64,000 nt of DNA, from assembly GCA_902806085.1 (NCBI GenBank), contig CADCVH010000105.1, forward strand, positions 1 to 64,000. The letters run 5' to 3'. Below the pieces are notes generated by a model. The model was not told the DNA's origin, ran no database searches, and was given only the letters and a program-made list of their open reading frames with translations. Each line of letters starts with the position of its first letter. The stretch's first letter is position 1. Below, in pieces: positions 1,431 through 6,750 of the stretch. This stretch comes from an uncultured Rubrobacteraceae bacterium. Lineage in GTDB: Bacteria; Actinomycetota; Rubrobacteria; Rubrobacterales; Rubrobacteraceae. The position numbers and the translations under genes were made by a program.

Positions 1431-2576
1431 TCAGGGACCGGTGGGGCGTGTTTCGTGAACGATGCGCTTCTCCCGCAGCACCTTCTCGGCCTCCGCAAAG
1501 TAGTCGCGCACGTCGCCCTGGTCCCCGATCCAGCCGATGTACTCCTCGATACCCTGCATCAGGTCCACGCCCGGCTCGTAGCCGGCCGCGCGGGCGCGGG
1601 AGATGTCGGAGGTCAGGTGGCGCATCTCGCCCGGCCTGAACTCTCCCCGGGCGAGCGGTTCTATCCGAACACCCAGGGCTTCGGATACCATCTCGGCGAC
1701 CTCGCGGATCGTCGTCGCCCGGCCGCTGCCGACGTTGACCGGCAGGCCGTCGAGCGCGTCGCTCTCGGCGGCGAGCAGGTTGGCGCGGGCCACGTCGCCC
1801 ACGAAGCACAGGTCGCGGGTCTGCTCGCCGTCCTCGTAGAGCACGGGGGGCTGGCCATTGAGGAGGCGCGTCGCGAAGATCGCGATCACCCCCGTGTAGG
1901 GGTTGAAGATGGACTGGCGCGGCCCGTAGGTGCAGGAGTACCGGAGCGCAACGGTGGGGACGCCGGTCTGCCGCCCCCAGGCGAGGGCCAGCCGCTCCTG
2001 GTCGGACTTGGTGATCGCGTAGACCGTCTCGCCGCCCATCGGGGCCTCCTCGGGCGTGGGAACCGGGTCGGAAGGCTCCCCGCACACGGGACAGTGGACT
2101 GCGTAGTCGCCGGCGGCGAGCTGATCCGTGGGGCGGGTGTCGGGAAAGACGAGGCCGTGCCGCAGGCACTCTGCCGCGCCCTCGCGGTAGACTGCCTGCG
2201 AGGAGGCAACCACGACCTTCTCCACGGGCAGGTTCTCGTCGCGGATGGTCTCGAGCAAGCGGGCCGTGCCGAGGCTGTTGACCTCGACGTACTTGGAGAT
2301 CTCGGGCATGTAGCCGCCGTAGGCCGCCTGGTGGAAGACGACGCTCACGCCTTCGAGCGCCGAGTTGATAGCCTTCTGGTCGCGGACGTCGGCGTGGAGG
2401 AACTCGGCCTGTGTCGGTATCCAGGGCGGTCGGCCTTTGCGGTGGGTGTTCGGTTCGAGGTTGTCGAGGATGCGGACCCTGTAGCCCTGCCTGAGGAGCA
2501 GGTCCGAGAGGTGCGAGCCGATCAGGCCGGCCCCGCCGGTAACCAGGGCGCGCCTGCCGGGCGTACGTCGCGTCAT
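1431..2576 (-). CDS. Extended SDR nucleoside-sugar epimerase/dehydratase
   Basis: A 381-residue extended short-chain dehydrogenase. The NAD-binding GGAGLIG is at residues 14-20 and the catalytic YAITK at 186-190, with a preceding VASSQAVY segment supplying the serine. The family acts on nucleotide sugars such as UDP-glucose or dTDP-rhamnose. An unusual insert at 162-168, CPVCGEP, lies between the active-site strands and could bind a metal; a similar cysteine pair is, from memory, found in some bacterial dTDP-rhamnose 4-epimerases, so that activity is possible but not proven. ATG start at 2576; it is transcribed alone, ending next to the hydrolase pseudogene. Cytosolic; probably cell-surface polysaccharide precursor metabolism. 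Confidence 0.85.
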   Translation of the reverse strand: MTRRTPGRRALVTGGAGLIGSHLSDLLLRQGYRVRILDNLEPNTHRKGRPPWIPTQAEFLHADVRDQKAINSALEGVSVVFHQAAYGGYMPEISKYVEVNSLGTARLLETIRDENLPVEKVVVASSQAVYREGAAECLRHGLVFPDTRPTDQLAAGDYAVHCPVCGEPSDPVPTPEEAPMGGETVYAITKSDQERLALAWGRQTGVPTVALRYSCTYGPRQSIFNPYTGVIAIFATRLLNGQPPVLYEDGEQTRDLCFVGDVARANLLAAESDALDGLPVNVGSGRATTIREVAEMVSEALGVRIEPLARGEFRPGEMRHLTSDISRARAAGYEPGVDLMQGIEEYIGWIGDQGDVRDYFAEAEKVLREKRIVHETRPTGP

Positions 2577-2681
2577 CTCTCTCCGATGCCTCCCATTGGT
2601 AGCCTTGTACGGGCTCCGCGGTCTTTCGGATGCACGGTTCCTCTTACCGCCGCGCCACTCGCGGGCCGGGCCGTAATGTTC

Positions 2682-4097
2682 CTACCCAAGAATCACCGGC
2701 AGCGTTACCCCCAACCCGAGCACGAAGAGCCACAGCGCGGGCGCCGGGGTCCCTATCGGGCGCCGGCGGCGCTCCTCCCGGGCGGCGATGCGTGGGTCGA
2801 GTCGCAGCCAGTCGGCGTGGCGGCGCTTCAGCAAGAGGAACACGCAGGCCGTCGCGGCGCCGTAGATCAGGTGTCCGACAAGCGACGGCAGCCCGGTGGC
2901 CGCGGCCTCGGTGGTCCAGACAAACGGATGTCCGAGCAGGATCGGCAACAGGGTCAGGTTGCCGACAAACCACCAGGCCAGCCCGTACACCATGCCCCAG
3001 GCGATCCCCGATCCTAAATCGAAAGCTTCGCGGCCGAACAGCACACCGTAACTCATCCCGATGAGCGTGCTTATCCCCATGTGGACCACGAACCCGAGCA
3101 CCGGGGATGAGCCACCAACCAGGTTGGCTATCTGCGGTAGTGCACCGGTCGAGACCATCACCAGGCTGAACAGGAGTCCACCCACCAGGCTCGCCACCAC
3201 GCCCCGGCCCAGAGAGCGCAGCGTGTGCGTCCCCGGCCCCTCGACCTCGCGGTTGATCGGGTCCGAGTCGTGGAAGAACCCGACCCAGAGCTTGTCCAGC
3301 GCGGCGTAGACCAGGCCAAGCAGCAGGCCGTAGATCACGTGTCCTACCAGGGAGCCGAACAGCCCGCCGCCCTGTTGGTAAGACCAGTCGGGCGGGCCAC
3401 CCTGCAAGATGGGCAGTAGCGTCAGCGGCCCGAGAAACCACCAGAAGATGCCGTAGGCCAGCCCCCAGCCCAAAGACGACCCGAGGCCGCGCACGTCGCG
3501 CTGGAATAACGCGCCGAAGCTCGCGCCTATGGTGACCGCGATCCCGTAGTGAATCGTCGTGCCTACCATGGCCGAGTTGGAGTCGACCAGGCCAGCGATG
3601 ATCAGGAAGAAATCGACCTGCGCCATCCACCTGCCGAAGGCCCAGCCACCGACGATGCCGGCCACCCCGCCGACCACCAACGCCCGGGGTAGGCTGAAGG
3701 GAGCCTGCCCCGGCGGCGGGCGCAAGCCACCCAACGTCCCCAGCGTCACACCCAGCGGCATGCCGAAGAACAGCAGGTAGGCGACGAGATCGGGGAAGTG
3801 GTTGCGGGCCGTGTCGACCATGCCCATCGCAGAGGCCCCGCCGGCTACGCCTAGCAGCGGGAACAGGCCAGCGGGACCGGCCAGCCACAAAAGCAGCGCG
3901 TAACCGAGGCCCCAGAGCAGCCCCGCGCCCGGACTAACCGCCCGGCGCGCGACCAGCAGCGCGAAGAGCACGCCGTACAGCCCTCCGAGCACGACACCGC
4001 CCACGAGCGAGGCGAGGCCTATAGCCCAGAGCAACGCCCCACCCAAACACCCGACGGCGAGGCCGGTGCGTAGCCCGGTGGCGCGTGCGTAGCCCAT
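2682..4097 (-). CDS. Polytopic membrane protein with three internal repeats
   Basis: A 471-residue protein that is almost wholly hydrophobic, with a basic tail segment [12 protein letters not shown] at about 438-449 before a last span. It is built from three diverged copies of one module, roughly residues 12-125, 139-270 and 300-425. Copies two and three share GxxFGxLF, then WGxxYGxxWWFxGxLTLLPILxG, then LVGHxIYG; copy one keeps [24 protein letters not shown] and [12 protein letters not shown]. The same module forms the N-terminus of the flavoprotein encoded just upstream (4 bases apart), so the two are likely cotranscribed and may assemble together. No known family recognised; a membrane anchor, quinone-site or transport role is inference. 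Confidence 0.8.
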
Positions 4098-4101
4098 CTC
4101 T

Positions 4102-5775
4102 CTAGTCGACCTCGATCGTCTGAACGATGTCGCGGGGGAAGAACAGCTCGATGTTCCAGTCCACGAACACGCGCACCTTGCGCTCCAGCCCGGGCAACTT
4201 GGAGAGGTAGATGGCCCTCCACATCATCCAGGCCAGCAGCCCGGAGAAGCGGAGGCCCTTGATCTCCGCGCACGCCGTGTGGTGGCCCACGACGGCCAGC
4301 GTCCCAAGCCCGCTGAAGTGGAACGCCCTGGGGGGCCGTCCGCGCACGCTGGCGTGGATGTTGTGCGCCAGCGTGTAGGCCTCGCGCAGCGCGAACTGGG
4401 CCGTCGGCGGGCAGGGCTTGCCCGTCTTCGCGTCCGTCACCGCCGCGCAGTCGCCCAGGGCCCACACGCCGGCGTGGTCCGGCACGGCCAGGTTTTCATC
4501 GACCGGCACCGCGCCCCGCTTGTCGAGCCCGACCGGCAGGTCCTTCAGGAGGGGGTTCGGCGTCGTGCCCGCCGTCCAGACAAGCGTCTCGGCCCGGATC
4601 TCCTCCCCCGAGTCGAGCACGACCACCCCGCGCCTGGCGTCGGCCACGCGGGTGTTCAGCTTGAACGTAACGCCCCTGGCGTCCATGCGCTCCAGGGCGT
4701 AGGCGGCCAGCGACTCGCTCAACTCCGGGAGGATGCGGTTGCGGGAGTGGAGCACCGTCACCCGCACCTCCTCCTTCGAGACGTTCGGGTAGAGGGCCAG
4801 CATGCCGCGCACGAAATCGTTCAGCCCGCCGGCAAGCTCCGCGCCCGCGAAGCCGCCGCCGGCCACCACGAAGTTCAGCATGGGACGTCTGATCTCCGGG
4901 TCCGTCTCGCGGTCGGCGCGCTCGAACATGTCGATGGTATGGTTGCGAATACGGATCGCATCCGCGAGCGTCTTGAAATCCAGCGCGTTCTTCCGAAGGC
5001 TGTCCATACCAAGGTAGTTAGAGACGGACCCCAGCGCCAGGACGAGGTGGTCGTACGAGATCTCGTCGTCCCCGGAAGAGCCGCCGTCCGATCGCAACAA
5101 CACCCGGCGACGTTCCAGGTCGATCGCGTCCACGCCCCCGCGCACGACGTTGGTACGGCGCAGGCTCGTGCGCAGCGGGCTGCTTATGTGCGTCGGCTCC
5201 AGGCTGCTCGTAGCCACCTCGGCGAGCATCGGCGTGAAGAGCAACGCGTTGGTGTCGCTCACCAGCGTGATCTCCACCGAGGGGTCGGGGCCAAACTCTT
5301 GCTCCAGGTGCTCGGCGGTCGTCACGCCCGCGAAGCCGCCGCCGAGGATCACGATACGCGTCTCGATCTCGCGCTTGAGTGGGGACCGGGTGCGCTCCGG
5401 ACCCAGCCACCGCAAGACCAGGTCCCCAAGTCCCTGGGCCAGCAACCCCAGAGCCGCACCGTACAGGACCCAGCCGACCAACGCCGGGAACAGGGCCAGC
5501 ATCCCGTCGGCCGTCCACTGCGGTCCCCGGCCCGCCAGCAGCGGCAACGAGATCACGCTTACCAACGTCCACAGCGGTACGCCAAGGGCCGCGGCGCTCA
5601 TGGCGCTGTCCACGTATGCGCGCTGCGCCGGACGGAAGGCCAGGGCATAGCCGATGCCCACCAGGGCCCCCAGCAGCAATCCCGTGGCGCCGCCGCCCAA
5701 CGTGGCCGCCAGGATCACGCCGCTCGCTGTCCCCGCCAGCAGGCCGATCACCGCACGCCGCACGTATCTGTTCAC
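4102..5775 (-). CDS. Membrane-anchored type II NADH dehydrogenase-like flavoprotein
   Basis: A 557-residue protein. Residues 1-125 are membrane-embedded; from about 135 on it is a standard NDH-2/sulfide-quinone reductase-like two-Rossmann flavoprotein: FAD-binding ILGGGFAG at about 143-150, NAD-binding [15 protein letters not shown] near 305, and the late FAD contact WALGDCA near 440 followed by [14 protein letters not shown]-2 enzymes pass electrons from NADH to quinone without pumping protons; normal members are about 400-450 residues and lack this N-terminal domain, which is homologous to the repeat of the downstream gene ([12 protein letters not shown] here, [12 protein letters not shown] there). 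Neighbours are a DoxX-like protein and a single-span peptide, suggesting a respiratory membrane complex. Confidence 0.88.
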
Positions 5776-6060: not shown

Positions 6061-6099
6061 CCACTCAAGTGAACCACTCAAGTGAACCACTCAAGTGAG
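6061..6099. repeat. Three tandem copies of a 13-bp unit covering a stop codon
   Basis: CCACTCAAGTGAA occurs at 6061-6073 and 6074-6086, and with one change (final G) at 6087-6099. The third copy contains the TGA stop of the DoxX-like gene (read on the minus strand). The unit is nearly self-complementary (CACT..AGTG). Confidence 0.95.
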
Positions 6100-6750
6100 C
6101 AACAGCAGCAGGCGTCCCACGCGGCTGCCACGTTCGCTCAGCGCCCTGAACCGGGGACGCAGCAGCCGGTCCAGGCCGAAGTAGCGTCCCGGCGCGATCC
6201 CGAACATGGCGACCGCGAGCAGCACGATCAGTATGTAGCTCCACTCCCACTCGTTCGGGGCGTTGGACAGCCCGATCATCAGCTGGCTGCCCATGCCGAT
6301 GGCGGCTAAAGCGCCCAGGCGGCTGAAGAACCCCAGGCACATGCTGAGGAAGATAAACGCTTCGGTGCTAAAGATCACGTACCCGAACCAGCGGATGTTG
6401 GGCTTTACGACGGTATCTATAAAAAAGCCGTTCAACTGCGTGGCCCACCCTATCGGGACGTACAACTCTGGACCGGGGTTCGCCCCTATGATGTCGGCCC
6501 TCAGCAGTCTGTTAGGGTCGCCAGCTATGGCGGACTCTTCCTCGATAAAGAAGCACAGCCCGCCTTTCGTAAAGTCGCTCCGGCACCCGAAGTCCGGCGG
6601 AACCTTCCACCAGAGCTGCGTAAAGAAGAGGTACCCGAGCCCGATGCTCGCTATCGCGATGGTGAACACGATGAGACCCCGTTCCAGACGCGACGACGAG
6701 TAGATGCCCTCCCTCGGCTCCTGCTTCTTTCCATAGTTCGTGTCGGCCAT
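6091..6750 (-). CDS. DoxX/DoxD-like membrane protein (possible quinone-reducing subunit)
   Basis: A 219-residue protein with a polar N-terminus (MADTNYGKKQEPREG), a first hydrophobic segment at about 26-46, a periplasm-like loop with cysteines (DFGCRSDFTKGGLCFF), and three further spans from about 118 to 185. The layout and the IGLSNAPNEWEWSYI segment fit the DoxX/thiosulfate-quinone oxidoreductase small-subunit superfamily, usually 130-200 residues. It is the first gene of a minus-strand run leading to the single-span peptide, the NDH-2-like enzyme and the repeat protein. The extended loop between span one and two is larger than in simple DoxX proteins. Family assignment is reasonable; substrate unknown. 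Confidence 0.7.
   Translation of the reverse strand: MADTNYGKKQEPREGIYSSSRLERGLIVFTIAIASIGLGYLFFTQLWWKVPPDFGCRSDFTKGGLCFFIEEESAIAGDPNRLLRADIIGANPGPELYVPIGWATQLNGFFIDTVVKPNIRWFGYVIFSTEAFIFLSMCLGFFSRLGALAAIGMGSQLMIGLSNAPNEWEWSYILIVLLAVAMFGIAPGRYFGLDRLLRPRFRALSERGSRVGRLLLLLT

Follow-up and report, generated by a model that had tools for sequence, protein, structure and literature searches.

NDH-2 is, by the textbook, a single-subunit, monotopic NADH dehydrogenase, and it forms a drug-target class. Why, then, would such an enzyme begin with an integral four-helix membrane module, and why would its gene lie next to one that encodes three further copies of this module? The question is raised by a locus of an uncultured Rubrobacteraceae bacterium, found in a contig stretch of 64,000 nucleotides that was analysed as a whole (the window). 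Two ORFs on the minus strand, with a spacing of 4 bases, encode a repeat protein (P1) and an NDH-2-like flavoprotein (P2), and both were found where an initial annotation had placed them, at 2682-5775 (Table 1).

Table 1. Features of the P1/P2 locus in the window, and genes beside the pair at other loci (L numbers)
Feature	Position	Strand	Basis
P1, 471 aa	2682..4097	-	translation; Pfam DUF1440; AlphaFold2 (AF2)
P1 module M1, residues 1-132, diverged copy	3702..4097	-	HMM-HMM (hhalign) 99.8-99.9% to M2, M3
P1 module M2, residues 133-286	3240..3701	-	HMM-HMM 100% to M3; invariant Trp220, Trp238
P1 module M3, residues 287-430, best conserved, His339/His409 pair	2808..3239	-	alignment, HMM-HMM
P1 helix 13, residues 452-470	2688..2744	-	conserved A452, P453, A454, W456; AF2 helix
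P2, 557 aa, NDH-2-like flavoprotein, four-helix module at the N-terminus	4102..5775	-	translation; Pfam; Foldseek; orthologues in several phyla
P2 module N, residues 1-130, helices 3-26, 29-46, 54-80, 89-124	5386..5775	-	HMM-HMM; AF2 helices; near-invariant Trp69
NDH-2 catalytic core, P2 residues 138-549	4129..5364	-	profile, Foldseek, invariant FAD/NAD glycines and E313
His343 codon, in place of NADH-selecting Glu/Asp	4747..4749	-	clade alignment; C. thermarum Glu aligned; FSP1 precedent
Two C-terminal amphipathic helices, P2 residues 512-545	4141..4242	-	AF2 H512-526, H530-545; invariant residues
DM13 proteins	L113 3193-3873; L120 7372-7896; L124 7452-8255; L131 5933-6460		
Molybdopterin oxidoreductase genes	L119 2529-4181 (directly upstream of pair); L127/L128 about 2400-3840		

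The division of P1 into modules and the corresponding profiles were built on 39 to 44 orthologues. The proposal that P1 uses one module three times held insofar as three four-helix units were recovered, besides which P1 has a conserved thirteenth helix that the proposal had missed. Similarly, the repeat pattern described for these units, WGxxYGxxWWFxGxLTLLPIL and then LVGHxIYG, is found in M2 and M3, but M1 has diverged from it though homologous. The sole Pfam match of P1 was DUF1440 (6.6e-13, 49.3 bits versus a gathering threshold of 34.7), and its orthologues at L095 (40.4) and L124 (42.9) score over this threshold too; no NCBIfam model and, by sequence, no solved structure matched P1. The AlphaFold2 model of P1 is confident (pLDDT 90, pTM 0.91), and a Foldseek search with it returned no fold match in the PDB (best E 0.18, TM at most ~ 0.2). 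The P1 module belongs to the DUF1440 (PF07274)/DUF6789 (PF20587) membrane superfamily. The DUF1440 model corresponds to one module of 135 positions, whereas P1 is a triplication with helix 13 and an NDH-2 partner. We take YagU of E. coli to be a DUF1440 protein. It was reported as an acid-induced inner-membrane protein that is required for acid survival (PMC1626474).

The same module was said to open P2, and the pairwise HMM test (hhalign) bore this out with highly significant matches of P2 residues 1-130 to M1, M2 and M3 (99.52, 99.67 and 99.75%, with E-values of 6.5e-23, 2.1e-25 and 2.3e-27, respectively). Indeed, all pairwise profile comparisons among these four units were highly significant, and the decoys for the P2 module reached at most 43% (reversed profiles) and 53% (locally, i.e., window-shuffled profiles). 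A single-sequence BLASTP gave E = 3e-12 without composition correction. When run over the whole host genome, the P1 profile retrieved, besides P1 itself, the N-terminus of P2 at 4.2e-11 and a single stand-alone protein of 165 aa, and over one Armatimonadetes genome it retrieved P1 plus the P2 N-terminus at 1.2e-39. Chance or compositional similarity, conceivable as all parts are Gly/Leu/Ala-rich membrane segments, was rejected with near certainty, since the reversed and shuffled decoys preserve composition and local hydrophobicity and score far lower, and the genome-wide searches pick out P2 N-termini specifically. Compared directly with Pfam DUF1440, the P2 N-terminus of the window gave no match and that of the L105 orthologue stayed below the cut-off (E 0.0011); its matches of 99.5% or more to the P1 modules point to this family indirectly. 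At the level of sequence homology, the P2 N-terminus is confirmed as a fourth copy of the P1 module. The AlphaFold2 model of P2 (pLDDT 87, pTM 0.80) displays four N-terminal and two canonical C-terminal helices. An N-terminal membrane module on this NDH-2, as initially described, is present, but the amphipathic C-terminal helices are kept too (NDH2_C, invariant residues); the module adds to them and does not replace them. If the N-terminus lies inside, as suggested by the Arg-rich RYVRR and the positive-inside rule, the flavodomain would be cytoplasmic.

Beyond this module, P2 matches Pyr_redox_2 (4.2e-48) and NDH2_C (3.3e-12) in Pfam, its nearest solved relatives in profile searches are NDH-2 enzymes (PDB 9mqy, 5e-81; 4nwz, 2e-74), and Foldseek placed its core onto NDH-2 structures with E-values of 1e-34 to 1e-35. 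The glycines of the dinucleotide-binding GxGxxG motifs (G145/G147/G150 and G306/G308/G311) and the catalytic Glu (E313) are conserved in 63/63 members of the clade; the equivalent of the latter, E172 of S. aureus NDH-2, is key for proton transfer (PMC5299459). In the C-terminal helices, W516, W519, R520, Y523, R535 and W540 are invariant; W516 and P528, the latter also invariant in the clade, are found in a minority of other NDH-2. At the NADH-selecting site, all 63 members have His343, versus Glu or Asp in 22 of 25 other NDH-2, from which three depart; Glu/Asp at this site bears on nucleotide specificity and does not define membership of NDH-2. The quinone-site motif reads AQxAxR in 60/63 members instead of AQxAxQ, which is not strictly defining, as its second Gln is missing in 6 of the 25 other NDH-2 of the same alignment. 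In FSP1, a His occupies the adenine-ribose position, and NADH and NADPH are used with similar kinetics (PMC10516921); by this analogy, and because His343 is invariant, the P2 clade is predicted to use NADPH as well as NADH. Altogether, His343, AQxAxR and W516/P528 lead us to predict that P2 is an NAD(P)H dehydrogenase and that its quinone site is modified; its acceptor may differ from an ordinary quinone because of the AQxAxR change and of Trp516 in the first amphipathic helix. Note that L034 (1237-4011) encodes an NDH-2, at 45% to P2, with a His at the NADH-selecting site and without the membrane module; as fusion partners in this protein, a cyclic-nucleotide-binding-like domain and FHA-like repeats were recognised by eye.

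The scan of the named genome collection provided 70 loci. Three-module proteins were found in Rubrobacteraceae, Chloroflexota (including Ktedonobacteria, e.g., Dictyobacter), Acidobacteriota and Armatimonadetes, in isolates of Streptomyces, Nocardia, Thermocatellispora, Allosalinactinospora and Actinocorallia, and also in bins labelled Deltaproteobacteria and halophilic archaea (two archaeal bins, with affiliation by label). An Actinomycetota sample contained a P1/P2-type locus in ~ 10 of 396 genomes, and the plasmid search gave two distant single-module matches only, both from Deinococcus. The gene-neighbourhood check proposed by the initial annotation agreed with its expectation: in ~ 40 named genomes, an N-extended NDH-2 gene lies immediately upstream, in the same orientation, wherever the contig reaches that far, and the three-module genes without it all start within ~ 0.5 kb of a contig end. 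In addition, a sample of 301 Chloroflexota genomes displayed 21 three-module places in 20 genomes, with the NDH-2 at 21/21, once across a contig break. One module-bearing NDH-2 without an adjacent P1 was observed (L198), and its genome encodes a complete pair at another place. The two genes overlap by 4 bases in 12 loci and by 8 bases in 6.

A larger conserved operon was rejected, as the neighbour clusters are mainly shadow ORFs of the pair and the Pfam tallies show minority neighbours only; naive gene calls among neighbours are unreliable at this high G+C, and homology-based results alone were retained. In the window, a DoxD-like gene (TQO subunit family) lies upstream of the pair at 6091-6750 on the minus strand; this family is absent from the frequent neighbour families of P1/P2 loci elsewhere (Pfam tally), and a literature search for NDH-2 together with DoxX found nothing. 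Genes for sigma-70-type regulators occur near the pair in some loci. Scans for sigma-70 promoters and terminators had no informative outcome.

The P1/P2 pair is an ancient two-gene unit that is conserved across many bacterial phyla. The NDH-2 cores of paired loci form one branch (support 0.96), in which the seven members not scored with a module either run off the end of their locus or have a diverged N-terminus (two genomes, one family). The P1 and P2 trees correlate closely (patristic r = 0.94, Mantel 0/2000) and have 16 supported splits in common, with 5 conflicting P1 splits; genes inherited together would show such agreement even if their products made no contact. A physical partnership is favoured by the co-divergence together with the gene overlap. 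Since the Rubrobacteraceae proteins are nearer to those of Chloroflexota (~ 60–70%) than to those of other Actinomycetota (~ 35%), the pair has probably been transferred between phyla as a unit.

A layout such as would be expected before fusion of the module to NDH-2 is observed in Ca. Magasanikbacteria (L137), in which a single-module gene ends immediately before the ATG of a 413-aa NDH-2 that lacks the extension; this arrangement appears ancestor-like, and its NDH-2 falls outside the branch of paired cores. The surrounding cluster (L137 3395-10760) holds DUF3179, a thioredoxin reductase, a thioredoxin-like protein, an apparent ArsR-type regulator and a mercuric reductase (above the curated cut-off). 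The other single modules (~ 40) have no NDH-2 alongside within the stretches read and are often near Crp-type regulators and DUF3179. Several stand-alone modules (L138, L143, L145, L151 and L024) are Met-rich (MMGMLPM, LxMPxxLGM) and have a conserved His pair; they lie next to Crp-type regulators, in many cases with DUF3179 as well, and a metal or redox link is possible for them. Two Chloroflexota loci (L188 2451-4085 and L189 2280-3917) encode a molybdopterin oxidoreductase of the sulfite-oxidase type with an N-terminal membrane region weakly like M1 (hhalign 91%, reversed control 0.2%), and there a P1-type module possibly serves another redox enzyme.

Our preferred reading, to which we assign a probability of roughly 0.55, is a membrane-integral NAD(P)H:quinone oxidoreductase with P1 and P2 as its two subunits, the P2 module being bound as a fourth and quinone access or hand-over being shaped by P1. 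P2 would be the flavin subunit, in which cytoplasmic NADH or NADPH would reduce the FAD, and the electrons would then pass to a membrane quinone where NDH-2 enzymes usually bind it, beside the C-terminal amphipathic helices. The extra N-terminal module would fix the enzyme in the membrane, and P1, with three further like modules and one helix, would take up this module and keep the enzyme at a membrane site of its own. Complex formation, NADPH use and a role of P1 in quinone handling are what we infer for the pair, and the packing of both proteins through like modules, as already suggested by the initial annotation, would be part of it. The quinone channel suggested at the same time is possible, and nothing was found for or against it. 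Speaking against the preferred reading are the modified quinone site and the fold search, which revealed no resemblance of P1 to a known quinone-binding protein.

Comparison with known systems situates the pair. The Ndh2 of flavin-based EET (Listeria, lactobacilli) has an extra membrane domain that is C-terminal, whereas the P2 module is N-terminal and DUF1440-like; EET partner families are not among the most frequent neighbour families of P1/P2 loci (Pfam tally). B. subtilis YjlC-YjlD (PDB 9a63, by its entry title) provides a precedent for an NDH-2 modelled with a second protein, but the partner P1 is polytopic and of the DUF1440 type. Canonical NDH-2 (PDB 4nwz, 9mqy and 5na1) have the whole core, the FAD/NAD motifs, the catalytic Glu and the C-terminal amphipathic helices in common with P2, which departs from them by its N-terminal four-helix module, the 13-helix partner gene, His343, AQxAxR and Trp516.

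As plain NDH-2 functions without such parts and the P2 core is fully conserved, P1 could also do no more than assist assembly or stability, or act as a lateral scaffold; the P2 module would then be a passive anchor and the chemistry that of a plain NDH-2. We regard this as a minority possibility, since the conservation of P1 exceeds the need of a passive scaffold: about 20 positions are invariant over several phyla, among them clusters of Trp, Tyr and Gly within the membrane. At one position of helix 3 (W376 in P1), a Trp is found in 64/65 M1, 65/65 M2 and 65/65 M3 modules, as well as in 45/46 P2 modules and 40/43 stand-alone modules.

His339 and His409 of M3, which by the predicted topology lie towards the outer side of the membrane in helices 2 and 4, suggest another function. 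A pair of this type is present in 54 of 65 M3 modules and 35 of 43 stand-alone modules, and in 3 of 46 P2 modules; because it is common to most stand-alone modules and lost in P2, M3 may keep the binding site of the ancestral module. P1 would be part of a transmembrane conduit, in which electrons pass from FAD through a P1-held cofactor or quinone to an extracytoplasmic acceptor and the two His bind heme, metal or quinone, and the minority of loci with a DM13 ‘electron transfer’ protein (4 loci, in Armatimonadetes and Streptomyces) or a molybdopterin oxidoreductase (3 loci) beside the pair would be in line with it. This is unlikely, however, since the conservation of His339 and His409 is just 84% and 93%, respectively, further ligand sets are absent and these neighbours are not general. 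Similarly doubtful is a pseudo-fourfold assembly of the four P1/P2 modules, of a fold not seen before, in which electrons or quinol would travel from the NDH-2 flavin across the membrane and a heme, a metal or a dedicated quinone would be bound at the outer-leaflet His339/His409 of M3; if true, this NDH-2 would be a transmembrane redox complex and not a surface enzyme.

P2 might also act like FSP1/AIFM2, i.e., reduce membrane quinones with NAD(P)H as radical-trapping antioxidants and not for respiration, a role compatible with the two-subunit complex. Both proteins belong to one superfamily (profile ~ 1e-28) and have a His at the adenine-ribose position, and the host genome and its relatives hold several other NDH-2-like genes, so that P2 may be specialised. 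We consider this role improbable, since His343 alone does not define a function and no lipid-protection gene context was found among the neighbours of the pair. FSP1 has neither membrane module nor partner, and the overall sequence of P2 is nearer to NDH-2. Finally, an ion-pumping NDH-2, in which the oxidation of NAD(P)H would be coupled to transport of H+ or Na+ through P1, as the large polytopic nature and transporter-like repeat build of P1 might suggest, was rejected as highly improbable, since the P1 fold matches no pump and no Asp, Glu, Lys or Arg is well conserved in the membrane core of P1 or of the P2 N-terminal helices, where only His339 and His409 are conserved and the conserved charges lie at helix ends.

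Our searches of an open-access library found no account of an NDH-2 with a P1-type module or partner, and none of the four papers found to name DUF1440 deals with NDH-2, as judged from title and abstract; the two-gene unit has apparently never been described. P1 represents a membrane fold for which no relative was found among solved structures, and its pairing with P2 would supply a functional context for the DUF1440 superfamily. The NADPH use predicted from His343 is directly testable. Altogether, a conserved NDH-2 branch that carries an integral membrane domain, has a 13-helix partner and occurs across many phyla, Streptomyces and Nocardia included, would alter the textbook picture of this enzyme.
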